A stretch of DNA of 64,000 nucleotides from assembly GCA_950295325.1 (NCBI GenBank), contig OX485804.1, positions 59,272,001-59,336,000 of the forward strand, given 5' to 3'. Both the position numbers and the translations under genes were made by a program. A model generated the notes under the pieces. It did no database searches, was not told the origin of the DNA, and worked only from the letters and a program-made list of their open reading frames with translations. Shown in pieces: positions 10,335-33,806 of this stretch. The stretch's first letter is position 1. Each line of letters starts with the position of its first letter. This DNA is from Polytrichum commune (lineage: Eukaryota; Streptophyta; Polytrichopsida; Polytrichales; Polytrichaceae).

Positions 10335-11059
10335 TAAGGTAGAGGGTGCTAAAACCAACACCCCATCCAAAACCAACACCTATAAACGCCTCCCAATTGC
10401 CAACACTCTACAACCTTGAACCGTACCCGGCGGTGTAGGAGTGTCTGGGCCCACGAAGTGATGGTTTTAGGTGCCATTAGTGGTGCCACCTCATAGCGGC
10501 CTCCATGACCTTCATGTAGGGTATGTAACGGGCTCCACTCTATCTCGGGTTGGTTCAAGGTGGGATTAGGGTGGCTTGTCAATGCCTATTCTAGTCATTC
10601 TATTCACAACGCCAAGGAGGTAGGCCCACAAAGCACAAAAGGGTCATTTCTCGGGAAGCAAATGGGGTCGGTTCCCGGGATGCAAGGTGATGGTTTTGCA
10701 AGTGAACCGGTAGGGATCATGGAGGTAGCCGTGTGGCTTTGCATCCCATTACTACTTGGGCTTTGATGTAGTTTGGGTCTAGTACCCAGCTATGTTGTGT
10801 TGGTTCTAGGCAATGAAGGTGGGGGTCCTCATCATATGCGAGGTTGCCATACACGGGGGCCTATGGATTGGTATAAGGAAGCTAGTAGTTTTGACTTTGA
10901 ATATTCATCAGATATTCAATTGAGACTAAAAATATTTTTTCTTTCTTGATACCTATGTTTAGCCCAAAGGCTAATATGAATATATATTTTATATATCAAC
11001 CACATAGCCATATGTATGTGCAATAGCTTAAAGTGTTGGTTTAAGCACCCTCTACCTTA
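10335..11059. mobile_element. non-autonomous TIR element, copy 1 (Harbinger-like?)
   Basis: A 725-bp unit with inverted ends. The left end reads TAAGGTAGAGGGTGCTAAAA and the right end is its reverse complement with one change (TAAGGTAGAGGGTGCTTAAA on the opposite strand). There is no coding capacity. The same sequence recurs in inverse orientation at 58447-59686. The TAA at the ends and the 3-bp target pattern seen at copy 2 suggest a PIF/Harbinger-type element; that class assignment is tentative. Confidence 0.7.
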
Positions 11060-11742: not shown

Positions 11743-12456
11743 AGGGCCGGTTCACATGAGGTTTGAGGTCCCAAGTCCCAAGTCCCACTTATGTTAGCAA
11801 GTCCCAACTTTTGAGCCTCATGAAATCACTAAAATATGGTTAAATATCATAAAAGTCGGATCTTGATTATTTTATGCAAAAATATTCGCAGGACTCGTGT
11901 TGAGAGTTGGGTCTAGCTTTTTGCTTGACCCAACTCGCAACACAAGTTCCAAACTTCACCCTCCAAAAAGTACTGCCATGTAAGCATCCATGTCATAGTT
12001 GGGACTTAGGACTTGGGACCCCATGTAAAGTGGTAAGTCCCAATTTTTTTTGTCTTTTTTTTTTTGGGCACAAATTGAATCCAATTTTCATGCTCTCAAC
12101 AATTGAGATTACATGAAGTGACCTCATGTGACTTGGGACTTGGGACTTGGGACCCCGTGTGAACGAGAGCCCTAAGTCTCAAGTATGACATGGATGCCTA
12201 CATGGCAACACTTGTTGGAGGTGGGGTTTGGGATGTGTGTTGAGAGTTGGGTCAAGCAAAAGCGAGTACCCAACTCTCAACACAAGTCCCGAGAGTATTT
12301 TTGTAGAATATAATCAAGATCTCACTTTAATGATAATTAACCATATTTTATTGATTTCTTGAGGCTCAAAAATTGGGACTTTGCCCCCATATCGAAACTT
12401 GCTAACATGAGTGGGACTTGGGACTTGGGACTTGGGGCCCCATGTGAACATGCCCT
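11743..12456. mobile_element. fold-back element with ~300-bp inverted arms
   Basis: The left half (about 11743-12040) and the right half (about 12120-12456) are inverted copies of each other around a short centre. Both carry runs of the word GGGACTTGGGACTT or its complement, plus a shared AAGTTGGGTC/GACCCAACTC block. The outer ends are AGGGCCGGTTCACATGAGG and, on the other strand, AGGGCATGTTCACATGGGG. There is no ORF. Related sequence is found at 60645-61990. No clear target-site duplication was seen. Confidence 0.7.
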
Positions 12457-13461
12457 AAATCATGACTTGTGACTAGGATCATAACAACTCCAATTGCAAT
12501 TCAAGGCGTGTGGGCCCTATTTATAACATTACTAAGCAACTACATGATGGTCTCTTTCCCCAATAAATGAGGTTGTGATTAAAATATTATGGTGATTTTA
12601 TGGTTGCTTGTTGAGACATTCACAATACACAACATGAGTGTTCCCCATAAACATGGCATCCCAAGGTTAAAGGAGAATTAAGCTTATGTGATACTTGGTC
12701 CCATAGAATGTAGCCAAGGAGTTGTGTAATATTATGTTGTGGGCACTACCAACTCCATTGACAATTTCAACTGGCAAGGTAGATGGGTCCCAAATGCTTA
12801 TTTTTTCTAACTAGCCTACTTCTTCTCCTAGGAGATGAAACAAACTATTGGTACAAGATAGTTACCAAATCTTAATCAAGGTCGTAGCATCTTATGTGAT
12901 CAATTGTAAAGCTCCTATGAAGTTATGGTGCATCATCAAAGTGAAATTTCTCATGCTCATTAAATGATCACATATGTTCCCCAAATCATGTAGACAATTG
13001 AATGGGTGGCTTAAACCCAATGCTTTAAACATGAATTCCCATGGGATCTCCAAGGTTAAGCCACCTAAGGCCAAAATAGTACTCGGGTGGTTGACCTTCC
13101 TAGGACTTGATTTATGATGCACCTTACCACCTATGATATACCCAATCGTATTGAGGGTATCTAGGTAAACCACATATTTTCAACCAACCATGTGAGAACC
13201 TCAGGGCAGCTTGCCTTTGGGGGAGATTGGTGTCAGCCAACTTGTCTACACCTATTAAAGGTGTTCACCTTCAACTAGGATATAAGTATATTTGGATTTA
13301 TGGATGTATTTTGGACAGTTCCAACCGCCAGTATGATGTACACTAGATCGCAAAACTACACAAATATAGTGGTTGGTGAACATGGAATACAAACACTCAA
13401 AGTTGTGGTTGTTGTGTTGTTGCTTTTTGTTTGTTTGATGTTTTTATCCCCGCAAGTGCAC
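12457..13461. other. intergenic stretch left of the giant element
   Basis: Only short shadow ORFs are present; I see no gene, RNA or clear repeat here. Its last bases abut the 9-bp target duplication of the large Mutator-like element. Confidence 0.5.
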
Positions 13462-13470
13462 ATCCTTATT
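13462..13470. repeat. left 9-bp target-site duplication of the giant element
   Basis: The sequence ATCCTTATT occurs here and again at 33798-33806, each copy directly outside an inverted end carrying GCATGAGCGTAGA. A 9-bp target duplication is the hallmark of Mutator-like transposition. Confidence 0.8.
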
Positions 13471-13926
13471 GGGCGTTGCTAGGGCATGAGCGTAGATTTT
13501 CTGAATTTCGAGCGGAGAGTTTTTATTTTTAGTAATAAAATTTCCAAAAATAATAATAAAATATTATTATAAATGATATATTCCTCATAATATTCGAATA
13601 TTTGAGGCTTATGGCCGTGGAATTTAGTACCCATAACCGTGCAAAATGGGCTTGACATATGGAAAAAATTTATATGTGACCGAGTTTTGGAGGAAATAGA
13701 TGACTTCATTGAAGAGAACTACAAGGACACATGTTCACGGAAGAGCACAAGTGAAGGACAAGTACAAGTGATTCATAAATTTAACATAGCGAAAAAATAA
13801 TATATATATAAATATATTTTTATATATACGTATTCACTAAATTGTGAAATTACATAGAGTGACGTGTGTCATATACGTTTATGAAAAAGAACATATATAT
13901 GAGACTAATAAATAAATCTGATTACT

Positions 13927-16900
13927 CTAAACTATAGCATGGGCTAAGATCCCCCTTTCAAGAATTGTTTTCACCTCCAAGAAACTGAGGGTAGGCGCAT
14001 GCATGAAGATGTCATGGTCGGCCTCTAGTTTGCAGACTTGTACGTAGAGATAGTAAAGATGCTTACAAGGTCGAAATGGACACCCGCGTCTACCCAGCTT
14101 AGCCATTGTCTCTTTGAACGCCGGGCAATTGCAGTCTGGGTAGGCACTGATTGAGAGATGGTAAACTGACTCCGTGGGAGCTGGTTTAGATTGCAAAGTT
14201 ACAACGCATCCAAAACCTGGTTGAGGTATCATTACTACCTTCAAAATACTTGCCTTCATTGCTCTAGCGGAATCAATGTTTTGCATGTGCTTCGAACTGG
14301 CACAAGTGATTGAGCGGCGCATGTTCTTTGACTTTCGTGTTTTAGGATAAACGTCTGCATTATCTGGCATTGGAACCTGTGACAGATCCGGTGGCGGTGC
14401 TGAACTGTTGAACGTGCGGCTCACAGGAATGCTTTGCTTTTGGGGAAGTTGAAATCCCGCATTCTCCAACGCCTCAATCTCGGAACGTGTGAGATTGGTC
14501 CCTATCTTCACAGGCCAAACCGACGGGATGGGAGGTCGTTCCTCGTAATCCGAAAATGGCTCTATCCATCGTCGACGATACCCCTTCACACACCTCTCAA
14601 TATCGTCAGCACAGAAAAAAAACTGCTCCACCACCTTCTGGTTGCCTTTTTGAGGGTGGGTCCAAAGGCCAGTGTATGTGGGAGCTGGTGTGCTCTTCCC
14701 GTTTTGGACGATATGGGATGTACACTTTTTTCGAGTGACAGCCATCTGCGCCCAACAAGCCTTCGCAGAAACCTTATTAAGTCGGGCAATGTGCCATAGC
14801 TTCTCATTCACACGAGTCTCCTCCACGGCCGTCACCTGTCCAATATCTATGCCAGTTGAGGCAGGGGGCTGTGCTGGGCGTTCCACTTCCACTTGAACTT
14901 CCTCCTGGATGGTACTCAGATTTTGAGCACGAGCACGTGTCACCCTCCGACCCACTCGAGGACGTGAAAAATTAACAATGTCTGGCCTATGAGTTTCTTC
15001 TTCGGCGCCAAGAAGAAGATCCGGCTTTCGTTTCCTCGACCCAAAAACCTCAGCTCCTTCGAGGTGTGCGTCTCGAGTATAGAAATCTTCGGCTCCGGGC
15101 ATGTTCAAGACGGCTGCGTTCAGGGTAGTCGGATCCCCGGTTCGGTGAGCTCTGCGTTGGGCTGTCCGAAGTCGAAGTTCTTCTCTCGAGGGTCCAGAGC
15201 CTCCCGCTCCACCTTTGAGGTATTGATAGTACCCCACCACTTGCAGGAATGCTCTAACGTAATCGTCGACGGCTGCTATGTAGAGATCGCCACCCCTATT
15301 GCCGGACGCTTGCAATCATTTGTTGTGAACGGTCTCAGCAAGGTTGCAAGAGGGCATTTCAGCTAGTTCATCTGGAGAATATTTCTTCTCCTGTACGAAG
15401 GCAACTGGTTAGAAAATGTTCGGAAACTCAATTCAGCAAGGAGAAGTCGTGGTGGGCCATGCCTGCTGCAACGCATGGATCCTCTAAAAATAGACATATT
15501 TTTCAGAAGAAGTTGTTGAGACACTGAAATAAATCTCAATGATGAAAACATAAAATTTAAAAGCTAAAGATTTGATATTGTTTAGATACTACATTAGACG
15601 CAGAGATAAGAGTGCAAACTTAAATCATTAAAAAATTTGAATGAAAGAGTGCATACTTACCAGTTCCATGAATCCACCCCACTGCCTGTATCGGAAATGC
15701 CAAAACGCAAGCCAGTGGTTCAAATGGTGGAGGCCAGCGTCAGAGGTGGCACCCGAAGATGTCCACCAGGCTTTGATTGCCAAGTAACGTGTTTCAGCCT
15801 CTCCCACAGACCGTGCATCTTTGTACTGCATACATAATTTCTTGTGTTGATCTTGCAATTCGTGCACGATGTATTGTTTGGTGTGTTTTTCTAGGGATTG
15901 CGCCCAATGGAAATAACACGTTCGCTCGCAGCCTTCCATGGGTATCTTTGGGTCTCCGGATCCGTAGATGATGCACACAACGTTCCAATTGGCTTGCGCA
16001 CTATCAGCCATGAAACCTTTGAACTGCGGCTTGTGTATTCCATGCCTACCCATGACATGGTTAAGGTTCTTCTAGAAAACGAGTTGAGCATCTTTGTCTT
16101 CAGACTGGAAATCACAGCAAGCAATGGTGAGTACACGTTGGTAAGAGGAGTCGTACACGTGGCAGGCCATGGTGGTCCAGTTGGCAACTCGTTTGACGTG
16201 GTCGAACATCATCCAGGAGTGCTCTAAATCGCCGCTAGGTTGCATTCGGCGGACAAGGTCAACACCGCTGCCAGGTCCCACCTCGGACATCTTGAATATG
16301 AAGACCTTGTCGGAGTCGTCCCCTTGGCCTGGAAACATGTTTCGTTGCACGTAGGCCCAGTTACTAAGCCCTCTGAGCTTAGTGATGCCATCAAGAACGC
16401 CATATCTGCGCAAATACTTGAAACTGTAGACACGGGTTTTTAAGTTAGGGGAATTGAGCTCCTTGCAACATTGGAAGATAGGCTCTAGCTGTTCCAGAGA
16501 AAGTAAGGTGGGAGGGTCGTCTTCTTCGCGGAGCAAGACGTTACCTAAAACATCCTTGCTAGTTTCCAAGACTATTTTGGAAATGGTAGCCTGCGGGTTG
16601 CGGTCAACATGTTGTTCGATAAAATCGTCGATTATCTTCCGCGTGCCCCTATAGTCTCCTACCTTGACAGGATGTTTGTGGTTGCCTACATGGATGCAAG
16701 CACGCTCTTGCGTATCATCTCCAAAAACGTAAAAGATTTTTGCATCACAAGAGGCTACACAAACAGGAGGTAATTCTTTACAGATCTTACAGACTAATGT
16801 TGAAGTTGGAGGTGGAGCGTCTGCAACAGGGAAGGCATCTTTGGAAGAACCTTCGAACTCGACCTCGTTCACTCCATATGCGCGTTCAGGCCGATGCAGA

Positions 16901-17853
16901 AACCCACATTTGGGATTGTGACATTGAAGATGACCTACACAGTTAGACGACCGGAATGACAGCCCCAGCGTGTTACTGATGTTAGTAGTCATAGTTTTTG
17001 TCCATATATGACCATCGTAACGTTTGTCCATACCTTCCATAGATTTAGCATTCTTATGGACGGCAGATGGAAGGGTGGGAGGAAGAATGAAGATTACATC
17101 CCCATTGAACGACGGTGGCAAGAAATCTACGTTCTCAGTACGGATGGAATCATAATTCAGTTTTTTTAGGACTGACTTGCTTCCAGGCATACTACCTAGG
17201 GAACGAAGGGAGGGAAGAATGTTTATGAGTTTAGTAGTTTGCGAAGGTATAAGGAAAGGAGTAGTCCTACGTGAATCTTGAGAAGAGGAGGGAGATGGAC
17301 GCTTAGCACTAGACCGGATTGATGGATGGGAAGGCCTCCCCTCTTCATCAGAAGAATCAGACAAATCGATGCTAACGCGGAGACCTGGTTCGATCTTGAC
17401 ACGAGACAGTAAGGGGGCTTCAGTGCACAGTGTGGAGGAACTGCGAGGAGTAAGTAGGACTGTAGTCGCGTTCATGGACTCCGACAAGCCAAAGACGCGA
17501 TACCTTCCGGGCTTGATTTTCCAAACGCGAGCATTATTGTCTAACGTTACGGGCTGGACGTATAAGGAATAAAGGACATTTTGAGTTTCCGGAGAGACAA
17601 CATTTGTCTCTAACCACAAACTATCAGCATCGAAACCAAGACGAATGGATAGCCATTGGGGAGTGAGATCAGCGGTTCCATCAGGGCCAGTAGGTATGCA
17701 TGTAGGGATAAGAGATCCAGGAGAAACAAGTTCGATGGCATCGAAGAGTGGAGCTTGGACAGCAGCGGAAGACATTGAGAAACAATTTGACAATGCTATG
17801 GGAGAGGGAATTTGCAAAAGAGGGATCGAAAAGAAACAATGAGATATATACAT
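13927..17853 (-). pseudogene. Mutator-like (MULE) transposase with SWIM zinc finger, decayed
   Basis: Nuclear DDE transposase relic. The first reading frame starts at ATG 17853 (or 17778) and runs to 16072. It contains Cys/His pairs (CHNPKCGFLH near residue 312; CKICKELPPVC near 365) and the start of the catalytic domain around residue 567 (ACHVYDSSYQR, ACCDFQSEDKDAQ). After a TAG at 16072-16074 the same frame continues as FKGFMADSAQANW and an RTCYFHW block, ending at a GT-AG donor after 15661. The next exon opens at 15483 in phase. It then shows a frame disturbance near 15400-15460 and a TGA at 15316-15318 inside the phrase AETVHNK-stop-LQASGNR. The last 462 codons (15315-13927) are open and hold the SWIM motif (CNCPAFKE ... 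CKHLYYL). Both stops sit where Trp would fit, so TGG-to-stop changes are likely. The order DDE core then SWIM is typical of plant MULEs. Confidence 0.85.
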
Positions 17854-17968
17854 GAGAGGTTGATGAAGACGTTGGACATCCCAGTCATGTACAGAATGTA
17901 GTCAGAAAATGTTTGGTTAAATATGAGAAATATTAATAATTTGTATGAACAGTAGTGTGAACAATACA

Positions 17969-18406
17969 TCATGGAGTGCCAGATGAAAATGGGGCCTTTG
18001 CCATATGGGGCCCTTTGCCATATTTGTCATTGTCATGTTTATGACAATGGTCAATCCCTAAACTACGAACTGCAGTGCATCCTGCGCAATCGAGTTTCTG
18101 ACCTTTGGCACTCCTCAATATGGATCTAGAGTAAGTGCCGGGTTTAATAACCCCTGCTCTAGAATAGGGATGAATCTTGAAAGTAGACTTCTTCTGTAAC
18201 AGTGATGCATCAACTGCCCGCAAAGATGGAGTCTGTGGTTGAGGAGTGGGGACGACGACCGCCGGAGTAACTGAGCAGTCAGGTGGGTTGGCAGTCTTCA
18301 TGTTGTTGACGTCTGCAGAACCATCGATTGACAACGTGGTGTCAATTTGAGATGAACTAGGAGCACCTACTGGAGCAAGGCTTGGGAGACGTGAGTCAGT
18401 ACCCAT
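17969..18406 (-). CDS. small ORF upstream of the MULE transposase, unknown
   Basis: A complete ATG-to-stop frame of 145 residues, 115 bp upstream of the transposase frame and on the same strand. The N-terminal half is rich in Ser, Pro and Thr. The C-terminal half is basic with a Cys/His cluster, DCAGCTAVRSLGIDHCHKH, that could bind zinc. I do not recognise the family. It may be a 5' exon of the transposase gene, an accessory protein of the element, or a chance frame. Its position inside the giant element makes an accessory role plausible but unproven. Confidence 0.4.
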   Translation of the reverse strand: MGTDSRLPSLAPVGAPSSSQIDTTLSIDGSADVNNMKTANPPDCSVTPAVVVPTPQPQTPSLRAVDASLLQKKSTFKIHPYSRAGVIKPGTYSRSILRSAKGQKLDCAGCTAVRSLGIDHCHKHDNDKYGKGPHMAKAPFSSGTP

Positions 18407-19073
18407 TGGAGAAGATATTGATGAGATGACATGAAGGGAAATGGTAGCAATAATCGGGCATTATATACAATTTGGGTAGACATGAATACCCAAATATTTG
18501 ACAACCTATTAGATCAAATAATAGTCAATATTTATTCAAGTAAATTATGGACAACCTGTTTCATATAGGATTAGAATGTACTCCATTAATAGTCATTACT
18601 TTATGACCACCAAATATGATACATGTCAGTATAGACTAATTTTCCTACGCACCAAATAAAAACACATTCTTGATTATCCAATATATGCTATGCCGAAATG
18701 CTGAAGTTAAACCTTAAAGCTGTCTGTACCTTTTATGGGAAAATATTTATGGAGGCCGTCATTGTCAGGGGAGATGCGCAAATATATTGACAAATTTGAA
18801 ATAGATTAATAACTGATGTCAGTGTTGTCAGTGATCTAATCTCGATTCCAACGTTTTAGGGTTTAGGCGCGGAATTATAATTAGAGGACATAGCGTGCTA
18901 GAAATTAAATACAAAGGAAAGGAATTCGGAGTGTTTGCAATGGCCTTTCGGAGTGTTTGCAATGGTCTTTTGGAGTGTTCGGAGTGTTTGGTTTTGTTTC
19001 TTTGTGTTGTAGTTGGGTCTCCATTTTAATCGTTGTTGTACAAATTTGTGTTCATTTATCGAAGTACCTAGCT

Positions 19074-19780
19074 ATGGAGGCTGCGAGCAGTAAAACAAAC
19101 AAAGTGAATGAGGTAGGTCGGGGGAGGAAGAAGAAGAGAGGTGGTATGAAATTCAGTGGGTCCAAGGTTTTGCGGCAGAACGCGTTGCGGAAGAGGGATG
19201 CGTCGGGTTCTTGCGAAGACGATAGAATAGTAGATGAAACTGATAAGAACGATGAGGACGAGGCAGGAGGGTTTGGACAGACTATAAAGATGCGGGTGTT
19301 GAACCTGGATGCAGTTGAAGAAAATGTTGAGGGTGAAGATGGAGGGGACAACAATAATGCGATTGAAGAGCAAGAATGTAGAAGGGACTCAAAATCGAGG
19401 AGTGATTCTTTGGGATTCGAACAAGACAGTGACGAAGAAGGGATCGATGGAGTTGTAAGTTTGAAGACCCTAAAACCTTGAAAGATGAGTGTTAAACTTC
19501 AGTCAATCTTACTTGCCTAGATGTGTTTGTACACTGCGATGAGATTGAGACATTGTTTGGTGAGATTTTTGGGCAGCAAGAAGTGCAGAGAGGTGCTGCA
19601 ATCGAAGGAGCAACCAGCGAAGACGTGGTGGATGGCCAGAAACAAGGAGAGGAAGAAGAATTAGGAGATGGATTACCGGTACTTATCCCAAACCCTAGAG
19701 AGAATGTAAATGAGGAAAATCGTCCGATGTTTATGATACTCCGACATCCAAATGGTTACATACAAAACAAGTTGATATAA
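19074..19780 (+). CDS. acidic low-complexity nuclear-type protein, two possible exons, unknown
   Basis: An ATG at 19074 opens a 135-codon frame that starts basic (GRGRKKKRGGMKF, NLS-like) and becomes very acidic (DETDKNDEDEAGG). A good donor (GTT|GTAAGT) lies at 19454/19455. A second acidic frame, 19523-19780, follows an acceptor TTGCCTAG and reads HCDEIETLFGEIFGQQ and GEEEELGDG. Composition and spacing suggest one spliced gene, but the phases of that donor and acceptor do not agree, so either another junction is used or the copy is broken. It lies within the giant element, divergent from the transposase. No known domain is recognised. Confidence 0.35.
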
Positions 19781-20059
19781 AGTTGTGAAATCCCGTGGGG
19801 TGAACCCGACGAGGAGAATGTGCTTGAAATCAAGAATGAACCTGACGTCGGATTAGGATCACATAAGGATATATAACGATTGCTTATAACGATTGTTTGT
19901 CACGTGATAGCTTCCAGTTGTCTGTACGTGTTGAGAACTTCTGATTATTTATTCTGTAGATGTCTTTCTTATTGACTAAGTAGCAATTGACGATGAAACG
20001 AGATAAATCAATAAATTCATTCTATGTGACTTTTAAATTGCACTTAGATAGTTCATTAC

Positions 20060-20230
20060 ATTATTGGGACCCGTGAAAGGCCGTGGAAGAGCGGGGCCCT
20101 TGAAGGGCCGGGTTAAACTAGCCGGGTTCTAGTAGCCCTTGCCGGCCCGGGACACTATGACGGGCCGGGACCATGTGAAGGCCCGGGACCCTTTGTGTGG
20201 CCGGGTCCATTTGTCGGGCCGGGATCCTTT
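20060..20230. repeat. GC-rich imperfect repeat of the word GGCCGGG
   Basis: About eight imperfect ~20-bp units built on GGGCCGGG/CCCGGGAC words, in an otherwise AT-rich context. The DNA is self-complementary in many places. It ends just before a frame whose ATG at about 20308 is followed by a GTAAGT donor (GAGAAC|GTAAGTCC), which could be a first exon of the ParB-methyltransferase-like gene; that link is speculative. Confidence 0.5.
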
Positions 20231-20529
20231 GTTTGGGAGGGTTTAGGGATGTATTCATAGTTGATCGTCCTACGAAGGAGTCCAAGAGAGCTCAAGGAGT
20301 TACAAGGATGGAGGGCACCACCGGAGACTTGGAGAACGTAAGTCCATCTTCATCGACATATTTTCATGAGTCCATTGTTCCGAAGGAGTAAAGAAGTTTC
20401 TAGTGGCCTCAAAGTATGAGGTATGTGTGATTTTGGAAACCCTAATCTATTGTATGCTTAAGTTGTATACATGTTAGATGCTTGATCAGATTGGCTTCAT
20501 CGAATGCGAAACCCTTGAGATCTCAAGCC

Positions 20530-22245
20530 TATGATGAGGCAACCCAGCCTCGGAGGCTGGGTTTGTTATTTTTGTGATTTCAAGCTTTTGATTTTAGACC
20601 TGGTGCCAGAGATGTCGCAGGCACCCCTCTCTTGCACTCTCGAGTTGGATTCTGGCAGCCTATGATGAGGCAACCCAACCTCGGAGGCTGGGTTTGTTTT
20701 TTTGTGATTTCAAGCTTTTGATTTTAGACCTGGTGCCTGCGATAGCGCAGGCACCCCTCTTTCGCACTCTCGAGTTGGTTTCTGGTAGCCTATGATGAGG
20801 CAACCCAGCCAGCCTCGGAGGCTGGATTCTTTTTTGTGATGTTAAGTTTTTGATTTTGGACCTGGTGCCTACGATAGCGCAGGCACCCCTCTCTCGCACT
20901 CTCAAGTTGGAATTATGGCAGCCTATGATGAGGGAACCCAGCCTCGGAGGCTGGGTTATTGTTTTTTGATTTTAAGCTTGTGAATTTAGACCTTTGATTC
21001 TGGATTCTGGCAGCCTATGATGAGGGAACCCAGCCTCGGAGGCTGGGTTTTTTTTTTTTGATTTTAAGCTTTTGATGTTAGACCTTTGAATTTGGATTCT
21101 GGTAGCCTATGATGAGGCAACCCAGCCAGCCTCGGAGGCTGGGTTAATTTTTGTGATGTTAAGTTTTTGATTTTGGACCTGGTGCCTGCGATAGCACAGG
21201 CACCCCTCTCTCGCACTCTCAAGTTGGATTCTGGCAGCCTATGATGAGGGAACCCAGCCTCAGAGGTTGGGTTATTTTTTTTGATGTTAAGTTTTTGATT
21301 TTGGACCTGGTGCCTGCGTTAGCGCAGGCACCCCTCTCTCGCACTCTCAAGTTGGATTCTGGCAACCTATGATAAGGGAACCCAACCTCGGAGGCTGGGT
21401 TTTTTTTGTGATTTTAAGCTTTTGATTTTAGACCTTTGAATTTGGATTTTGGCAGCCTATGATGAGGGAACCCAGCCTCGGAGGCTGGGTTAATTTTTGT
21501 GATGTTAAGTTTTTGATTTTGGACCTGGTGCCTACGATAGTGCAGGCACCCCTCTCTCGCACTCTCAAGTTGGATTATGGCAGCCTATGATGAGGGAACC
21601 CAGCCTCGGAGGCTGGGTTTTTTTTGTGATTTTAAGCTTTTGATTTTAGACCTTTGAATTTGGATTCTGGCAGCCTATGATGAGGGAACCCAGCCTCGGA
21701 GGCTGGGTTAATTTTTGTGATGTTAAGTTTTTGATTTTGGACCTGGTGCCTGCGTTAGCGCAGGCACCCCTCTCTCGCACTCTCAAGTTGGATTCTGGCA
21801 GCCTATGATGAGGGAACCCAGCCTCCGAGGCTGGGTTTTTTTTTTGATTTTAAGCTTTTGATTTTAGACATTTGAATTTGGATTCTGGCAGCCTATGATG
21901 AGGGAACCCAGCCTCGGAGGCTGGGTTATTTTTTTTGATGTTAAGTTTTTGATTTTGGACCTGCTGCCTGCGATAGCGCAGGCACCCCTCTCTCGTACTC
22001 TCAAGTTGGATTCTGGTAGCCTATGATGAGGCAACCCAGCCAGCCTCGGAGGCTGGGTTAATTTTTGTGATGTTAAGTTTTGATTTTGGACCTGGTGCCT
22101 GCGATAGCGCAGGCACCCCTCTTTCGAACTCTCAAGTTGGATTCTGGCAGCCTATGATGAGGGAACCCAACCTCGGAGGCTGGGTTCGTTTTTTTTGATT
22201 TTAAGCATTTGATGTTAGACCTTTGAATTTGGATTCTGGTAGCCT
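20530..22245. repeat. palindrome array AB, first block
   Basis: Tandem units of roughly 90-130 bp contain two hairpin-forming words. Word A has arms AACCCAGCCTC / GAGGCTGGGTT around one base. Word B has arms GGTGCCTGCG / CGCAGGCACC around four bases. They are linked by conserved spacers such as GGATTCTGGCAGCCTATGAT and TTTGATTTTAGACC. About 15 A words and nine B words lie in this block. Some units lack B, giving an irregular A-B / A pattern. Arm changes are often kept on one side only, so pairing is not strictly maintained. There is no coding function; the ORFs are read-through of the repeats. Confidence 0.9.
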
Positions 22246-23365
22246 CAATGTGGCAAATGAGTAGTCCATTCGCATCTACAAGCAGCGTAGATGAAGATGG
22301 AGGGGTCATTTGTCAAAATCGAAAAATGTATGAAAAAGTTACGATGGTCTGAAGTTTGTAGGGGCTTCTTGGTAGGGACCCTCTCGGATCCGAGAGGGTG
22401 GTGGAGGGGTGGGATCCCCACATCATATTTACTTTGGGACCTAGGTTTGAATGATGTGTGAGGTATTTCTTTGGGTATATGATATGTGAGAGTATATGTT
22501 TGTGTACATGATATGTCACATACACACCTTCTTGGATCCGAGAGGGTGGTGGAAGGGTGGGATCCCCACACCATGTTTTGCTTTGGAATCTAGGTTTGAA
22601 GGATGTGTGAAGTATTTCTTTGGGTATATGATATGTGAGAGTATATGTGTGTGTACATGATATGTCACATAGACACCCTCTCGGATCCGAGAGGGTGGTG
22701 GAGGGGTGGGATCCCCACATCATATTTTGCTTTGGGACCTAGATTTGAAGGATGTGTGAGGTATTTCTTTGGGTATATGATATGTGAGAGTATATGTTTG
22801 TGTACATGATATATCACATAGACACCCTCTCGGATCTGAGAGGGTGGTGGAGGGGTGGGATCCCCACATCATATTTTGATTTGGAATCTAGGTTTGAAGG
22901 ATGTGTGAGGTATTCCTTTGGATATATGATATGTGAGAGTATATGTTTCTGTACATGATATGTCACATAGACACCCTCTCGGATCCGAGAGGGTGGTGGA
23001 GGGGTGGGATCCCCACACCATATTATGCTTTGGGATCTAGGTTTGAAGGATGTGTGAGGTATTTCTTTGGGTATATGATATGGGAGAGTATATGTTTGTG
23101 CTCATGATATGTCACATAGACACCCTCTCGGATCCGAGAGGGTGGCGGAGGTGTAGGATCCCCACATCAGATTTTGCTTTGGGACCTAGCTTTGAATAGG
23201 CATAACTTCCTCAATACTTGCCCGAACGTGGCAAATGAGTAGTCCATTCGCATCTACATAAAGCGTAGATGAAGATGCAGGGGTCATTTGTCAAAATTGG
23301 AGAATGTATGAGAAAGTTATGATGCTCTGAAGTTTCTAGGGGCTTCTTGGTAGGGACCCTCTCGG
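22246..23365. repeat. palindrome array C with ~148-bp units
   Basis: About six units of ~148-150 bp, each with a perfect or near-perfect 24-bp palindrome (arm GACCCTCTCGGA, centred on GGATCC), followed by GGTGGTGGAGGGGTGGGATC and a spacer rich in GTATATG and ATGATATG words. Copies lie near 22378, 22528, 22675, 22823, 22975 and 23123. The block is flanked by two copies of a ~140-bp segment beginning GTGGCAAATGAGTAGTCCAT (about 22250 and 23228), the second ending at another palindrome near 23357. Confidence 0.9.
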
Positions 23366-23861
23366 ATCCGAGAGGGTGGTGGAGGTGATGGTGAAATAAT
23401 TGGGTATGGACTAGAGAAGGACCCTCTCGGATCCGAGAGGGTCTTCACTTGAGGGCTTGAGGACCACATTTTGATTTCAAGGCTAGGCACTTAGTACGTG
23501 TAGTTGGGTCAACTTGTTTGGATTGATTCGGTTTTGATGGTGAATTAGTTGGGTATGGAGTAGAGAAGGACCCTCTCGGATCCGAGAGGGTCTTCACTTG
23601 AGGGCTTGAGGACCACATTTTGATTTCAAGGCTAGGCACTTAGTACGTTTAGTTGGGTCAACTTGTTTGGACTGCTTCGATTCTCATGGTCAATTAGTTG
23701 GGTATGGAGTAAAGAAGGACCCTCTCGGATCCGAGAGGGTCTTCACTTGAGGGCTTGAGGACCACATTTTGATTTCAAGGCCAGGCACTTAGTATGTGTA
23801 GTTGGGTTGAACTTGTTTTGACTGCTTCGGTTTTGATGGTGAATTACTTGGGTATGGACTA
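23366..23861. repeat. palindrome array C, second type of ~148-bp unit
   Basis: Three units share the same 24-bp palindrome (near 23421, 23570 and 23717) but have a different spacer: TCTTCACTTGAGGGCTTGAG, a block containing CACATTTTGATTTCAAGG, then TTGGGTATGGA. The spacing is again 147-149 bp. Keeping the palindrome while the spacer differs suggests the palindrome is the conserved element. Confidence 0.9.
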
Positions 23862-24690
23862 GATGATGAGGGAACCCAGCCTCGGAGGCTGGGTTATTTT
23901 TTTTGATGTTAAGTTTTTGATTTTGGACCTGGTGCCTACGTTAGCGCAGGCACCCCTCTCTCGCACTCTCAAGTTGGATTCTGGCAGCCTATGATGAGGG
24001 GACCCAACCTCGGAGGCTGGTTTTTTTTTTTTGATTTTAAGCTTTTGATTTTAGACCTTTGAATTTGGATTCTGGCAGCCTATGATGATGGAACCCAGCC
24101 TCGGAGGCTGGGTTCGTTTTTTTTGATTTAAAGCTTGTGAATTTAGACCTTTGAATTTGGATTCTGGCAGCCTATGATGAGGGAACCCAACCTCGGAGGC
24201 TAGGTTAATTTTTGTGATGTTAAGTTTTTGATTTTGGACCTGGTGCCTGCGCTATCGCAGGCACCCCTCTCTCGCACTCTCAAGTTGGAATTCTGGCAGC
24301 CTATGATGAGGGAACCCAGCCTCGGAGGCTGGGTTAATTTTTGTGATGTTAAGTTTTTGATTTTGGACCTGGTGCCTACGATAGCGCAGGCACCCCTCTC
24401 TCGCACTCTCAAGTTGGAATTCTGGCAGCCTATGATGAGGGAACCCAACCTCGAAGGCTGGGTTAATTTTTGTGATGTTAAGTTTTTGATTTTGGACCTG
24501 GTGCATGCGATAGCGCAGGCACCCCTCTCTCGCACTCTCAAGTTGGAATTCTGGCAGCCTATGATGAGGGAACCCAGCCTCGGAGGCTGGGTTTGTTTTT
24601 TTGATTTTAAGCTTTTGATTTTAGACCTTTCAAGTTGGAAATTGGCAGCCTATGATGAGGCAACCCAGCCTCAGAGGCTGGGTTTTTTTT
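23862..24690. repeat. palindrome array AB, second block
   Basis: The A and B hairpin units of the first block resume here, with eight A words and four B words. The C-type arrays therefore look like an insertion into, or expansion within, one original AB array. The last unit ends about 75 bp before a possible acceptor (TATGCAG at 24765) and 250 bp before the first clear coding exon of the ParB-methyltransferase-like gene. Confidence 0.9.
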
Positions 24691-26218
24691 TTGTGTGTTT
24701 AAGGTTGTTCATCTTAATGTGATTCGTTTTTTCTAAACCATATTCATTTAATTTCCATATGCAGGTTTCTCCACGTATGATGACTCCGACTACAACAGTT
24801 TAGTCATTGGTTTATATGCTATGACAACTATGTCTAATTATCTTGTCCAATTGACTCCTCCAAGACTTGTTATTCATGGGATTATTGATTTATAGTCCTT
24901 TCCTAATGGTATTGTGTTTCGTTTACCTATCTTGTAGATGACTTTAGGCGATGTGCTTGTACCTGAGCAAGTCCCACCTCCATCTATAGATTCCTTTGAG
25001 GAGTTTAGCATTCCTTCGGAGAATCAACATTCTCCTACCTCATATGTTGCCGACATGGAAGAGGATATTCCTCCGAATGCCCCATCCTCCGGTCAACACG
25101 CTGCCGATACTAGCCATCATGTTGAGGAAGCCGATACCATACAGGAGGCCACCCAAGAAGTGATTGAGTCGAGCAACATACGCTCGCCAAAGCCCTTCCG
25201 TCCTCCTAGTGGTGTTGAACTTGGCATTGTTCACATGCCCCCTCATCTGGAGGACAAGGACCCCATGTGGAGCGCAAATGAGATGAGGTTGCTGCAGAAG
25301 AGTGACTATAACACAATCATCTCCAAGCTTCGCACCAAACCCATTAAGAAGTCTCGATTCCTTATTCCTCTTTGCCGTCTCAAGACCTACCCGAAGGTGC
25401 GTCCAATTGTCGATTCGGACGTCGAGATGTTGGCTAATGAGTTCATCAAAGGGTATTGAGAAGGTGATCGAGTATTGTACGTGTCTCCTTTCGACATCAC
25501 GGACAAGGACCTAGCGGTTCGAGAGGACAACGCCATCTGGTCTAACCCGCTATGGAAAGCCACTAATGATGAGTTCGAGGAGTACTTGTCCTCTGATCCT
25601 GATCTCCATCATTTTCGGAACAAATACTTTTACGTCTACGAAGGCAATCACCGCGTGATGGCTTGGATGGATTACATCCACAAGTACCATTCCAATAATC
25701 ATGACTGGTACATTTCGGTTGACTGTATTATTCTCGACGCACGTGGGCAATGCTCAATGCTTCTCAACGTGATGAACGACATCAACTGGTAACTATACTT
25801 GCAAATCCATTTCCATTCATTTCATATTCAATTCAATCAGTGAAAGCTTGTTTTAATTTTGATATTGTAACTCACAGGTCCACGGAACATGATCATGTTC
25901 AAGACAGTACTATTGCCAAGTTGCAAAGAATTCGAACCTTCGGCGCATTCAAAATTTCTGATTTCAAAGGTCTTATTAGCAAAGAGGACTTGGTTATTTG
26001 CGAAGTTTATAAATCCCGTGTACCGTCATGGTATCCACTCACAATGGACATTTTCGTTAAATTCCTCCACGCGGTGAGTTTTCTTGAATTATGTACTTAT
26101 CATTTTCATATTATGAAGTGCATCATGCGTTTCTTGCATCTTAATTATTGTCGTACAAAGACAATGCGCTGCTGCATCCGACGCTGCTTGCTCGAACTAC
26201 TACGAGACCGTTGTCGTG

Positions 26219-27469
26219 ATGTAGGCGGTCTATTAGTTAGAATTTAGATATTTTATTTGTTTTCGTTATTTTTAAGTTGATCTTAGTTAGGCAAAAACCG
26301 GTTTTAAGTTGAAGACCGGATGAATTGGTAGATGGATGTGGTAGGTAGGATTGGATTTACCGGCGGGCCAATAGCTAACCACCTAGAAGTTCTAGAAGAT
26401 TTTTACTTTAAATTCCTATTGGCTTGCCGGATTAGCCTTTAGCCCAAACTTCCTATTTCTAGCGGGATTAAGGTTCTAGAAACCTTTAACCCCATATATT
26501 TCTTATTTCTAGTAGGATAAGGGTTCTAGAAACCTTTAACCCCAAAGGTCACCCATTAGCAAGCCACTTGGAGGGGTTCTAGAGGACCTTACCTCGATGG
26601 TTTCCTATTGGCCGAAAGGGGGCAAAGTGGAAGACTATTTAAGGGATGTTAGAAATGTGTTTAGGGGGACCATTAGTATTTTGAAATTGATATTTGTGTA
26701 GGATCGAGGAAGCTTAGAGCATTTTGAGAGGAATAAGTGCTTAGGAGGCTCATCTACACAAAATGATGTGGAGGTGTGGCATTTAGAGTGACTAGATTGC
26801 ACTAGGTGCACTACTTCTTGAGTTTTATTGGTTATGAACTTGAGCAGAACTTTATAGGGAAAGATTTGTCAATTATGGATGATCAGAGTGTTCAATGGAT
26901 ATGAAAATTTGAGGGATTGTTTATTATGAGTTATGGAAGTTGTGGTAAAAATTTGAGAGCTTCAATTATTGGCATGAAAAAGTTATTAAGAGTTGAAGGG
27001 AAGGGTGTCTAGGAACAAAGCCAACTAAACTAGCAAGGTTTGAAAATATGTATCTTTTAGAGGATTATAGATATGGATACCAAAATTTGACACCACCTTT
27101 TGAACTTACACATCTATCTTGTGTTAAAATCTAAAATTTTTTGGACATAAGAGTAGGAAGTTATTAAGGTTTTAGTGACCGGGTGTTTTATCACAGCATT
27201 CATGCTAGGTAGTTAGAGTTAGAATATAATGCATAACTTTTGCATATGAACTCTGATTGTGCTAAAATTTGGTGGGAATGTTTTTGATAAGGTACTTAAT
27301 AAGTGTACTAAATTTTACTTGAAGAAGATGAGTTGGTTTTGAGTTATATTATTCTGAAGTTTAGAAGGACCACATTGAGAGAGATTTACATCAAGAGTGT
27401 AGGAGAAGGAAAGCTACTATATATTTTTTTAAACACTACCATAAAATAAAAGCCCGGCGCTTACTGGAT
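26219..27469. other. long intron or insertion within the ParB-methyltransferase-like gene
   Basis: This AT-rich stretch separates two coding exons. It includes a ~46-bp duplication of the phrase GGTTCTAGAAACCTTTAACC (about 26465-26550) and a TATTTAAG box near 26637. The size and promoter-like box recall a solo LTR, but I find neither clear TG...CA ends nor a flanking duplication. It may simply be intron. Confidence 0.4.
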
Positions 27470-27719
27470 AGTGCATATTTTCCATGACACCGTGCCCGAG
27501 AATGAGAGGACTGGGCCTAGAATCTGGAGCACGATAGACAAGGCGATCACGAAGTGTGTCAAGTATTGGCGCAGCCAAAGGTTTGACAAGATGGTTGCAA
27601 TCGCCAACCCAGCCAATGGAGAGTTATTTGAACAAGAGGTATTCAATTCTTTGGTCACATTATCAGTTTCCAAGTCATCTGATATTTTTGCTTTGTCACT
27701 TTCTTTTTGTTCCTATCAA

Positions 27720-28161
27720 CTCAAATCTCAACTCTCAAATCTCAACTCTCAACTCTCAAATCTCAAATCTCAACTCTCAAATCTCAACTCTCAAATCTCA
27801 ACTCTCAAATCTCAACTCTCAACTCTCAAATCTCAACTCTCAACTCTCAAATCTCAACTCTCAACTCTCAACTCTCAAATCTCAACTCTCAAATCTCAAC
27901 TCTCAAATCTCAACTCTCAAATCTCAAAATCTCAACTCTCAAATCTCAACTCTCAAATCTCAACTCTCAACTCTCAAATCTCAACTCTCAAATCTCAACT
28001 CTCAAATCTCAAAATCTCAACTCTCAAATCTCAAATCTCAACTCTCAACTCTCAACTCTCAAATCTCAACTCTCAAATCTCAACTCTCAAATCTCAAATC
28101 TCAAATCTCAAATCTCAAATCTCAAATCTCAACTCTCAAATCTCAAATCTCAAATCTCAAA

Positions 28162-28258
<97 letters not shown>

Positions 28259-28483
28259 ATCTCAACTCTCAACTCTCAACTCTCAAATCTCAAATCTCAA
28301 ATCTCAAATCTCAAATCTCAAATCTCAAATCTCAACTCTCAAATCTCAACTCTCAAATCTCAACTCTCAAATCTCAACTCTCAAATCTCAACTCTCAAAT
28401 CTCAACTCTCAAATCTCAACTCTCAACTCTCAACTCTCAAATCTCAACTCTCAAATCTCAACTCTCAACTCTCAACTCTCAAA

Positions 28484-28545
<62 letters not shown>

Positions 28546-28602
28546 ATCTCAACTCTCAACTCTCAACTCTCAAATCTCAACTCTCAACTCTCAACTCTCA
28601 AA

Positions 28603-28671
<69 letters not shown>

Positions 28672-28742
28672 ATCTCAACTCTCAACTCTCAACTCTCAAA
28701 TCTCAACTCTCAACTCTCAACTCTCAAATCTCAACTCTCAAA

Positions 28743-28776
<34 letters not shown>

Positions 28777-28833
28777 ATCTCAACTCTCAAATCTCAACTC
28801 TCAACTCTCAACTCTCAAATCTCAACTCTCAAA

Positions 28834-28867
<34 letters not shown>

Positions 28868-29075
28868 ATCTCAACTCTCAAATCTCAACTCTCAAATCTC
28901 AACTCTCAAATCTCAACTCTCAAATCTCAACTCTCAAATCTCAACTCTCAACTCTCAAATCTCAAATCTCAAATCTCAAATCTCAAATCTCAACTCTCAA
29001 CTCAACTCTCAACTCAACTCTCAACTCAACTCTCAACTCAACTCTCAACTCAACTCTCAACTCTCAACTCTCCAT
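27720..29075. repeat. heptamer array of ATCTCAA / CTCTCAA
   Basis: About 190 head-to-tail 7-bp units that differ almost only at one position (A or C), with two units one base longer (AAATCTCAA phrases) near 27925 and 28010. The last ~70 bp change to a 12-bp unit CAACTCAACTCT. It sits in an intron between the exons ending at 27638 and starting at 29087; the acceptor CCACGCAG follows directly. All three forward frames are open because the unit has no stop codon, so the >500-residue ORFs here are artefacts. Confidence 0.95.
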
Positions 29076-31685
29076 TTTCCACGCAGCTCAATAAACACTA
29101 TACTAGCGGGAAATCATTGGACTTGACCGTTGAGCGACTTCATAAAATTGCAACCACCAAATCCAATGAAGGACAAATTCCTCGACGCCTGGTTGCCAAG
29201 GGCTTCTAACTGGGCTCAAGTATGACGATATTTACTTCCTCTAGGCTCTTCATTTTTAATCTGTTTTAATCAATGTTACTTCTAACACCCATCGTTTCAT
29301 AATGTATGTCAGTTGTCTACTTTCCTTAATGACCACATCGACAACTATGTCACTAAACTTAAGATCAACATTGAGTGGAGCTCCGTTGTTCTCAAGCCGG
29401 CGGAATACGTGGAGAAATGGAGATCGCTATTGTGGAAGAAGGTTTTCCCCTTCTACCTCTCGGAAAATGCAAGCCCAAGGTTTCTGAAAGGTTCAGAGCT
29501 CCTAAAGATTAAAGGTGGAATTTTAGCGGGCCGCTTGTTTTACAGGTTTGTATGATTTGACTTCTTGTTTGATTCAGTGTTCTCTTTGTCTCTATCACCC
29601 TTACTAAATGTAACGCATATATACAGGTACATGAAGCAAGAGCTCATCGCCAAACGTGCTCTTCCGGCTTGGGAAGTTCCGACTCATGTCGAGCTCAAAC
29701 CGTCTACACAAACGCCTATTGAGGAACTTTGGACCGAAGACCAACGCAATCGATTTCCCAATGAGATGTTGCTCACAGGTGGTTGGTTCCTCGAGTGCCC
29801 ACCAAACTTCGTTCCTGAGGAGGAGAAACACCTCGTCCCTGTCCCGGAACCATCTGCAGGAGGAGCGGCTCCTATGGTCACTGACTTAAACGACGAGGAA
29901 ATTCAACCTGAACATGCTCCGAAGCCAAAAGTTCAACGTCGAGGGAAGGTTCGTTCTCGCGACGGTTCCGTTGTTACAGCCTCACCTGCAGGAGTTCAAA
30001 TTCCGGCAGGACCTCCTTTGGCTTCGACTCAAACTTCGCAACGCACGGTTTCTAATCCGCCATCACCTCCACGTTCCAACTTGGATGTTCAATCTAGCCA
30101 AACTCATCATGTCACACACTCTGGCCGTGGTGTACCACCCCCGAAGGTGTAGGTGCCATTTCGTCTTCGCCGTTTAAGACGACCCTACCGATGTTTCTTG
30201 AGCATGGAAACTTCTGTGCCTTGCTTAACCAGTCTGAACACCAGAAATTCATGGATCGACAACTTGTCCGTATCGTAGACCACATTATCAAGGTCACACA
30301 ATCCCATATCTCACTAACACTATCAATTTGACAATTTTCTTGGACTAGTGAGGTTTTTTATTATCGGTAACTCATGCTTTCCACTACTCTTATTCATACA
30401 GATCGGGGTCGGCCGTACTTATCCTTGTGAATCGATGCAAATGCGGCCTAGGCATCCTGGAATTGATCTCGTGATTGTTGACGCTCCCGAAGACTTGGTC
30501 GTGCCTGTCATCTCCCCCATGTCCGTACCATCGTGGAACAAGCGAGAGATAGACTACTTTGACCAACTCTTCGCCTTCGCAGATTGTCACTTGACCGATG
30601 ACGGAGTTGTTCTACTCTTCCATCCCAAGGACCGTCGAATCGAGAAGAAGTTAGATAGTAAAATCAAAATCTATGATTTTACGATTGTCCGGGATTGGTG
30701 GGGCTATAATCCCATTCCCATGGCCTCCTCCCTTCCACACCAGAAAGAGGTATTATCTTTTATGTTCATAATTTGAATTTCTCAATCCGACAATCAGTTT
30801 CAATATCTACTTATCCTTGAGGTTGTTTTACAGACCCATAACTTCAACATTAAGGTCTTTGCACGCCTTAGTTCCAAGTTCCACACTTGCCGATTGCGAC
30901 CACAGTTCGTACAAATGGAGATCCTTCCCGAAGAGCGCGACGACTTGACGAACTTCACGACAACCGAGTCCCAACTTCTACGCCCTAGCGGACTTCCTTG
31001 GCGTGGCTCGCGTGAGAAGGACCCATCCTTTGTTCAGTGCTTCATCGAGTGTCTTACAGACGAGTGTGATATTGTCTGCGACTGGAGCCCTAGTACAGGT
31101 TTTCAATCTCTCCCTTCATCGTTTACAACAGCTGAAACTGAATTCCACTTTCTAAATTCCGTTTTCCAAACTGCAGGTGCTTCTGTCATTGCTTGCCAAC
31201 GTTCGAACCGACACCTCATCGCGTTAGAGCCGGATTCAGAAATCTTTGAGGCGCTTCTCAAGCCTTACGTGGATGCGATCCCGCAACCAGAAGAGCGTGC
31301 GGATTCAACCACAGACTATAATTCTGAGGAAGACATTGCGCCAAAGAAGAAGAAGGGTCGCAAGTATTGCGGTGCGTCTTAACTCCATGTCTTAAGTCTC
31401 TCAAACATTTAATGTATTCATAGAATTTGTCATGCTGACTTTGTTTTATTGTTTAGTGACGCAGGTCTCGCACGACGTTTGATCCGCCACGTTGATGTCT
31501 ATATGAGTCCTCCTACTTCGTTCGCCTTACCTTCATATGCCGAACGTATAGCACAGGATTTCATACGCGCCCCATCTCCAATCCTTTCAGATTCTCCACG
31601 TCAACTTTTCAACCCTACAGTGCTTAGATACATGGATGTCGAGGCTGATCAATGTGACCAAAGTTTCGATTTTGGTTCACCTTGA

Positions 31686-33797
31686 TCATGACTATCCATA
31701 TGTTTGTTTCTTTTCTCTCGCCACGTGCATAATGTAGTCATTTCAAATGGCCATTTCTTTTTAAAATAAAACATCTACAAGTTTCTTTGTGTCATAGCTA
31801 TTGTAGACTTGTCAAAGAAGTTCAAAGAAGTTGAAGTTTGAAAGTTTGAGTTAAGCCATTTGCACTGAAATGCATGTGCACACTTCAAACTTGAACATTG
31901 AATTGATTCTATCTAACAAAACCTAGTAAGGACATGTCTTCGGTTTTTATGTCAATTGTATATAAATTGTTGAAGTGCATTTTGTTTATTTTAAAGCTTA
32001 GAAATATATACATATATATTGTATTCTTCCATAAATGCTACCGTTGTTGAACCCTAGTTTCAACTCATTTCTTTAATTGGATAATCTCACTAGAAGGACA
32101 ATGCATTTCCTTCAATGGTTATTTTGCATTTTTAAAAATATGAATAGCATTTTAACACAAAAAAATAATTTTTATTGCCTCCAAACACCCGTGGGGCGTT
32201 TGGTTATGTTTATGGGCACATGCTGCCAATTATAATTGCAGCATTGTACTAACTGAAAAAGCTGAATGATTGCCAACCCTTAAAAGTTGCCTAAGTTCAG
32301 AGGGGGCCTTGGCGAGAATAATAATGAAAATTCTTGTTTATACTCCATCTTTAGTCGTTTCTTAAAGAAGCAACCTGTCATAGAATATTTTAATCTCCTT
32401 AACAAGGTAAATTCTTCATTTAAGTACTAAGTTGAAGACCATATTTATGGTGTAAATATGGTCAAGTGCATCATATAATAACATATAGTTCTAGCATCAA
32501 TGTCAAAATTTGTGATGTATGGGAGGGAATTATGAAAATAAGGAGTGAGAATTAAAACTCAAAACATCCATTCTTTAGGGTTTTGAGATATAAGAAGCAA
32601 TGTCAATAAGGAGGTTAATACAAGAGAATTTATAGTATATTGCATGGGAGAGTCAACAATTTAAATAAGTTACATTGGAGTTTGTTATTTGAATACATTT
32701 TTTCGAGGGAGCACCTATTCATAATTAGTATGTGATTAGTTGAAGATCAAAGAACAAAATCATGGGGGGGGGGAAGAGGGGGACATGGGCAATAATGATC
32801 TTTTCTTCCACATAACATTTTGGTTGGAGGGTAACATTCAAGGGCTTTTACATAATGAGCAAATTCAGCTTTACCGTGATTCGGTAACTTAAATGAATGG
32901 CATTCACTTTTCACGTTCACTCTAGATTTGCACCCATAGCATTGCATATCTAGAACTCATCCACCGTGAAAACCCTAGAATAGTATGTAACTTTGAGTAC
33001 TATTGTATCTTAGTAATTTGACATCAAAATTTGAGGCCAATCAACAATTAACCTAAAGGGGTCAAGTCTAGATAATGTATGGATGAAAGTTATGCTCGTA
33101 CGTGATAATCACCCTTTTCTAGCCACTTCAAAAGAGCCATGTGTCAAGAGGTTTTGGGCTTAAAGTAGACGTGCTTAATTCAGTTACTTATGTTAATGAA
33201 CACCTATCTTTGAGTGGTATGTGGTTAGATGTAGCTACAAAAATGGAAACCCAAACAAATAAAAAAGATCGGACTATATACTCTATAGTATAATGACCAT
33301 CCTAGACACAATACCTAATGAACATATTTGAGGGGACCTACCTACATGACCGATTAACGAGCACAAGAATATTCACTTGTTGGATTGTATAAATTTCGCC
33401 ATTTACATTATTGTTTCGAAGATGCCCGCATCTAAATGATGAAGGCAACCCTAATTACGTTTACGCCCTTAGCCTTAAACACTAAAACAAATTTGTGAAT
33501 TAATTAAAACACAATTTCATTTCAACCTTGAACGGTCCTCATTTAAATCACCCTTTCATTTAAATGATGACGTCAGCCCTAATTTAACTATATATATAAT
33601 AACAAAAATTTGCTGTAGGACCCCCTTCCACGGATTTGGGGTACTCTTTTCCCTAAAAATATACATTTACAATTTTGTCCGGACCAAATTCAGTGGTAAT
33701 AGGATCCTTATGTTTCAATAAATTTTTGAAAAGCGAGCGGAGAAATTCACGAAAACATGACGCTCACCGCTCTACGCTCATGCTGTAACTTTCCCCC
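31686..33797. other. right subterminal region of the giant element, no gene seen
   Basis: Over 2 kb of AT-rich non-coding DNA between the last exon of the ParB-methyltransferase-like gene and the right inverted end. A short poly-G run lies at about 32764-32772. The terminal ~70 bp hold GCGAGCGGAG and CCGCTCTACGCTCATGC words, related to the left end at 13485-13525 in inverse orientation. Confidence 0.55.
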
Positions 33798-33806
33798 ATC
33801 CTTATT
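33798..33806. repeat. right 9-bp target-site duplication of the giant element
   Basis: ATCCTTATT is identical to the left copy at 13462-13470 and lies directly after the terminal CCCCC of the right inverted end. Confidence 0.8.

Follow-up and report, generated by a model that had tools for sequence, protein, structure and literature searches.

We describe a spliced gene of the moss Polytrichum commune that joins a ParB-like domain to a DNA methyltransferase-like domain and lies within a large Mutator-like transposable element (MULE). The window is a 64,000-nucleotide stretch of the genome (C2:59272001-59336000), and the assembly as a whole (407.8 Mb in 64 contigs) was searched for further copies. 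The accessory gene of this transposon is present in the window as a broken copy. Its intact product, predicted at roughly 1,100 residues, begins with a nucleotide-pocket domain of ParB/sulfiredoxin fold, continues with a middle region and a low-complexity linker, and ends in a permuted domain like that of amino-methyltransferases, whose catalytic motif is absent from the close and distant copies alike. Taken as a whole, the statement that this MULE has a constitutive accessory protein which binds DNA and for the most part does not methylate has, in our judgement, about an even chance of being right.

A spliced gene for a ParB- and methyltransferase-like protein

Reading of exons and splice signals in the window places the gene on the + strand at 24938-31685, in about 11 exons with a stop codon at 31685 (Table 1), in agreement with a preliminary description, made from this DNA alone, of more than ten spliced exons ending at the same position. 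The frame contains the motifs IPLCRLKTYPKVRP, EGNHRVMAW, DLVIVDAPED and CDWSPSTG...ACQRSNRHLIALEPD. The edges of exons 3 and 4 are uncertain, since 26226 is not followed by GT nor 27449 preceded by AG, and the stretch 26230-27445, first taken as an insertion in the gene, is now read as an intron. One intron is confirmed through relatives, since proteins of Ceratodon purpureus span its position, and the metagenome frames P0041 and P0043 read through the intron between PHQK and THNFN. In the window copy the gene is broken by one in-frame stop in exon 1, a deletion and frameshift in exon 5 and a late frameshift in exon 7, while exons 8-11 form an uninterrupted frame. A 7-base unit (CTCAACT/CTCAAAT), repeated about 194 times, fills the intron stretch 27720-29072.

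The N-terminal part had been described as a ParB/sulfiredoxin-fold domain, and the AlphaFold model of exon 1 agrees with this: block means of the predicted local distance difference test (pLDDT) are 71-97 from residue 101 on, and in a structure search the model resembles ParB and sulfiredoxin structures, pointing to a ParB/Srx alpha+beta fold. Among its viral structural matches the ‘DNA methylase’ of Mycobacterium phage Vincenzo (479 residues) stands at rank 9 with E 4.7e-3. The arginine of EGNHR is kept in 32 of the 33 aligned rows of the ParB part and is, by analogy, the nucleotide-pocket (P motif) residue. The ParB assignment comes from predicted structure and from motifs, without support from any sequence profile.

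The C-terminal part had likewise been read as an amino-methyltransferase-like domain with motif IV before motif I. The phage family phrog_3008 (DNA methyltransferase) is matched by the window at E 1.9e-4 in a profile search and by the protein P0001 at E 2.5e-5. A profile-profile comparison with eight phage and plasmid amino-methyltransferases gave a probability of 95.8% (E 6.9e-9, 82 columns, on the motif I side), against 0.5% for the methyltransferase set with the ParB profile and 0.3% for the two halves of the protein itself; most of the eight methylases had been picked for matching P0001, so the set is biased in favour of the match. Pairwise and joint alignments with known methylases cover motif IV through motif I in the permuted order, and in them GIDLIIADAPEG stands over SIDMILCDLPYG, which puts a glutamate at the place of the catalytic tyrosine. 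The top PDB sequence matches are DpnA adenine methyltransferases, at E values (0.57 and 0.14) not significant alone. Among phages, tblastn gave weak matches in 240 records (best E 1e-2), with a methylase name on 11 of the 15 listed, and one place (H1, E 0.03) covers both motif IV and motif I; among plasmids the best E was 0.2, and the NCBIfam profile search returned nothing near its cut-offs.

The catalytic motif itself is missing. In the pattern [DNS]PP[YFW], the aromatic residue at the fourth place is found in none of the 20 distant loci and in none of the seven close copies from the same genome, all seven of which read DAPED. In the distant loci the fourth place is E in 17 and K in 3, and the third is not P in 4. 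Among the protein rows covering the motif in frame (P0054-P0056 were left out), DAPED is read in the window, P0041 and P0042, DAPEG in P0001-3, DAPSN in P0043 and DVPEH in P0046; P0045 has NASK at the motif IV place, with a different upstream sequence. The lack of an aromatic residue across close copies and distant loci indicates that the loss is old and has been kept, and a reading of the protein as a working methylase is not supported.

An active modifying enzyme with unusual chemistry, in which D-x-P-E would be a variant active site methylating element DNA, RNA or protein, might account for the conservation of the acidic replacement itself (DAPE in every close copy, E in most distant loci), for the cofactor motif GxG kept in 11 of the 20 distant loci and for the selection described below (dN/dS 0.33), and a captured bacterial amino-methyltransferase acting at eukaryote transposons has a precedent (PMC8885841). 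We nevertheless consider such an enzyme improbable, as the amino-methyltransferase motifs named in the relevant passages of that paper (DPPY, SPPY, NPPY, DPPY/F and DPPW) are all aromatic-ended, and as N4-methylcytosine was lost there when Ala took the place of Ser and Tyr in SPPY.

Relatives, copies and the transposon

Relatives in other plants, for which a search had been proposed, are found in a moss and a fern. The whole conceptual protein (residues 100-1046) matches three proteins at E <=1e-3, all from Ceratodon purpureus (E 1.3e-183 to 5.9e-167), whose annotated models are without the ParB exon. The ParB part matches 37 proteins at E <=10, spanning 8.5e-123 to 3.8e-10, of which 36 are without an organism name, nearly all on short contigs, and one (P0040, 30% identity, annotated as hypothetical) is from the fern Adiantum capillus-veneris; the methyltransferase-like part matches 18 proteins. 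From the E values of the ParB part and the whole frame, the exon motifs are not due to chance. P0015, with the ParB part, and P0052, which differs little from Ceratodon P0003, are each listed with a contig of 5405 bases, and this shared length, by itself, suggests that the ParB and methyltransferase parts are one gene in Ceratodon also. No relative was confirmed in viral contigs searched with ParB and methyltransferase profiles, or in bacterial and archaeal genomes searched with the ParB profile only.

Within the P. commune genome there are at least 134 matches to the methyltransferase-like part, twelve of them, counting that of the window, full-length at 94-98% identity, with 29-41% for most of the rest. 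Of the eleven close copies outside the window seven were fetched, each with 20 kb upstream and six with 6 kb downstream. All seven contain the ParB exon (86-87% DNA identity) and the methyltransferase part, and six contain a 609-residue transposase open reading frame (ORF) in divergent orientation at 92-96% identity, which bears out the expected linkage to transposases; copy C5 is without the last transposase ORF. In the seventh copy (L032, L033; C2:69424655-69444654) about 12 kb separate the ParB exon from the methyltransferase part, and the gap contains a related transposase (33-40% identity), probably as part of an element from the same superfamily nested there. In all three distant members examined, at about 36% identity, the ParB exon lies 2-5 kb upstream in the same direction.

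For exons 8-10 the close copies give a ratio of nonsynonymous to synonymous substitution rates (dN/dS) of 0.33, and for exon 1 one of 0.46, from 21 pairs each whose non-independence counts against the estimates. Between Ceratodon paralogues the methyltransferase-like part is 90-92% identical and gap-free, against 59-72% in the linker, with many gaps in two of the three pairs. Together, these figures indicate that the protein is under selection though the methylating motif is gone. They also bear on whether a host gene was captured or domesticated and now travels as a passenger. We think this very improbable even though annotation treats the three Ceratodon proteins as products of ordinary hypothetical genes and extra MULE ORFs are often assumed to be host-derived (passages of PMC6446971), for the gene is present in every close copy examined, the ParB and methyltransferase parts stay together in all three distant members and dN/dS is below 1.

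The element itself was delimited by comparing copies, similarity between which stops sharply at window positions 13471 and 33796. The window element has a perfect 10-bp target-site duplication, CATCCTTATT; both ends are known for six copies, counting that of the window, and five of these have a duplication, of 10-11 bp in three others and 9-10 bp in one, while the sixth has none. The terminal inverted repeat is short and imperfect, with GCATGAGCGTAGA found near either end at about the same offset and with 13 identical bases in the window copy (E 0.01), 16 in the C3 copy (E 2.3e-4) and 83% identity over 42 in the C1 copy (E 1.5e-6); the window read alone has no long terminal inverted repeat, and the short repeats were found only with the help of the other copies. 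By these 9-11-bp duplications, shared sharp ends and inverted ends, the element is Mutator-like by insertion signature, with a diverged transposase, and the placing of the gene within a MULE in the preliminary description is supported. The transposase motifs, identified by eye, are D-49-D-29-CxxH and a C-terminal CxC...CxH (SWIM-like), and may correspond to the DDE, CxxH and zinc-finger arrangement of MULE transposases. Two extra ORFs (Table 1) have been kept with the element (65-91% identity, six of seven copies), so that, like VANDAL elements, this MULE may have three or four genes in all. A 331-base stretch inside the element (32734-33064) is absent from the six other copies compared at that end.

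An array of palindromes of three kinds precedes the gene. All 21 perfect palindromes of the window (arm >=10, loop <=3) fall in 20541-24684, compared with 0 in 50 Markov-chain sequences, and with loops up to 6 the same stretch has 26 of 28. Palindrome A ranks 1 of 68 for conservation within its unit, with arm changes that are one-sided, 16 to 1. Palindrome B is the most conserved stretch only in a two-unit array, ranking 27 of 128 in the other, and conservation of palindrome C is no higher than that of its flanks. Genome-wide, palindrome B has 442 places, and among the 100 listed many sites appear once per strand; in one of the three distant members two B sites precede the ParB exon by about 2 kb. 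Exact A, B and C palindromes occur in none of the seven other copies, the array being particular to the window copy among the eight. We rejected the array as a parS- or VANC-like protein target forming a general part of the system, given this absence from the other copies, the one-sided arm changes and the conservation of B and C.

Table 1. Coordinates of the transposon, its genes and its repeats in the window
Feature	Position	Strand	Remarks
Left target-site duplication	13461..13470	.	CATCCTTATT
Whole transposon, 20,326 bp	13471..33796	.	Termini GGGCGTTGC... and ...TTTCCCC; homology to other copies stops here
Transposase gene, spliced	13927..17901	-	ORFs 17901-16072, 16071-15628, 15315-13927; one in-frame stop here
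ORF, 163 residues	17969..18460	-	Upstream transposase exon or small gene; 83-91% in 6/7 other copies
ORF, 190 residues	18909..19481	+	Possible further accessory gene, divergent from transposase; 65-80% in 6/7 other copies
Tandem-repeat array	20541..24684	.	Three palindrome kinds (23 A, 10 B, 13 C, mismatches allowed)
Exon 1	24938..25788	+	ParB/sulfiredoxin-fold domain (about residues 138-283); one in-frame stop here
Exon 2	25878..26073	+	
Exon 3	26161..26226	+	Boundaries uncertain
Exon 4	27449..27638	+	Start of middle region; 5' boundary uncertain
Exon 5	29087..29219	+	Deletion and frameshift in window copy
Exon 6	29313..29545	+	Middle region
Exon 7	29627..30292	+	End of middle region and low-complexity linker; frameshift near 30146 in window copy
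Exon 8	30402..30749	+	Methyltransferase-like domain; motif IV position DAPE
Exon 9	30834..31098	+	Methyltransferase-like domain; helix before motif I and start of motif I
Exon 10	31177..31371	+	End of motif I and following strand
Exon 11	31465..31685	+	Conserved C-terminal tail and stop
Right target-site duplication	33797..33806	.	CATCCTTATT

Elsewhere in the window, a host gene at 1970-5412 on the - strand has Pyr_redox_2 and EF-hand matches, like a plant external NADH dehydrogenase. An inverted repeat at 11743-12456 (arms of 54-162 nt, 84-87% complementary) resembles a miniature element, and copies of a dispersed repeat at 10332-11059 and 58447-59689 lie in opposite orientation, 79-91% identical and about 47-49 kb apart.

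Weighing the role of the protein

Several results tell against the interpretation of this gene as the selected accessory gene of a MULE, encoding a ParB- and methyltransferase-like protein. A failure of profile searches had been named in advance as grounds for dropping the domain assignments, and in Pfam neither domain scores above its cut-off: N6_N4_Mtase (PF01555) reaches 18.3 of the 26.7 bits needed for P0001 (E 0.0024), and for the ParB part DUF6551 alone is matched, in 3 of 33 members at a best E of 0.048. The structure match of the one domain and the profile-profile match of the other were both obtained, and for ParB the sub-cut-off score is a detection limit and no test of fold. The ParB part matches no PDB chain in a sequence search, and the AlphaFold model of the methyltransferase-like part is unusable (mean pLDDT 33.7). 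Motif I also varies: of the 11 distant loci in which GxG is clear, two have a stop just before it, in three further loci the match ends after the first G, and that first G is lost in the clade of the window. Stops occur in exon 1 and in exons 8-10, in two of seven copies each, and exon 1 has small indels in several. For the transposon, the transposase is without any Pfam match, and PF10551, found at at least 142 genome places (150 of 271 candidates scored), has none in the window; within the 10 kb fetched for each of the three distant members, a related divergent transposase (37%) accompanies one and the other two have none.

If the protein is nonetheless what it appears to be, its ParB-like domain would, by analogy with ParB, bind nucleotide and either load the protein onto element DNA or clamp it there. 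The methyltransferase-like domain would bind DNA, and perhaps S-adenosylmethionine, without methylating bases; we regard this as the most likely function of that domain, and somewhat favour it on the sequence evidence, because the loss of the catalytic aromatic is conserved and the rest is under purifying selection. The protein would be trans-acting within its own element family, and there would most likely shield the element from host silencing, much as VANC shields VANDAL elements, a role that we advance by analogy and tentatively.

Alternatively the protein would assist transposition, a helper role that we rank nearly as likely as anti-silencing, and which by analogy again we hold to be possible rather than probable. 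In its strict form, as a cofactor in for example end-binding, nicking or targeting, without a silencing role, this explanation would fit the divergent arrangement with the transposase in six of seven copies, the nicking by the ParB domain of the bacterial ParB-methylase Bce_0392 (PMC5512222) and the apparent need for the second gene of MuDR in integration (passages of PMC6446971). It leaves the methyltransferase-like half without explanation, and no nuclease-centre motif was noticed, no search aimed at one having been made; we therefore consider a pure cofactor rather unlikely. An anti-silencing protein bound to element DNA has VANC as its nearest model; VANC is not known to be ParB- or methyltransferase-like, as the moss protein is.

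Comparison with known systems

ParB-methylase fusions, combining a ParB-CTPase fold with N6_N4_Mtase (PF01555), have been described in phages, prophages and bacteria (PMC12704722, PMC5512222); Bce_0392, with its nicking activity, is a studied member (PMC5512222). The moss gene resembles these fusions in having ParB and amino-methyltransferase parts in one protein tied to mobile DNA. In contrast to those described in these sources, it is nuclear and spliced, has a middle region and a tail in addition, for a length of roughly 1,100 residues, and is transposase-linked and without the catalytic motif. The words plant, moss and transpos have zero occurrences in the main text of PMC12704722, and in the literature searched (mostly open-access; titles and abstract openings), in which an earlier report could be missed, we found no ParB-methylase gene in a eukaryotic transposon.

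Among plant elements the VANDAL/Hiun MULEs, which carry vanA, vanB and vanC (PMC5735166, PMC6446971), are similar in combining a transposase with further genes, and theirs include a DNA-binding anti-silencing protein; by analogy, anti-silencing by VANC (PMC5735166) is the closest plant precedent known to us. The bdelloid N4CMT is likewise a permuted, transposon-linked amino-methyltransferase domain of bacterial type in a eukaryote, but, as the passages on it describe, it is a host gene with a chromodomain and an active SPPY that silences transposons, and they mention no ParB domain (PMC8885841). Fungal TET/JBP and oomycete SET transposons, as outlined in PMC12730594, are also DNA transposons carrying a gene of epigenetic-modifier type, of other enzyme families and in other hosts.

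The ParB-methylase-like build of the gene, together with its exchanged methylating motif, suggests that a bacterial or viral DNA-handling protein may have become a helper of a plant transposon. A more specific and more doubtful proposal is that a phage-type ParB-methylase was taken over, its fold kept and its active site exchanged for the conserved D-x-P-E, to give a nucleotide-gated, non-methylating clamp or reader that would protect or desilence the element, and so a third kind of counter-silencing factor encoded by transposons, besides VANC and TET/JBP. A spliced version under selection in a plant DNA transposon puts the ParB-methylase module into a eukaryotic mobile element. If the protein counters silencing, it would offer a direct test of how transposons escape methylation in early land-plant lineages, and the kept loss of the catalytic residue leads to a clear prediction, open to experiment, for a repurposed methyltransferase fold.

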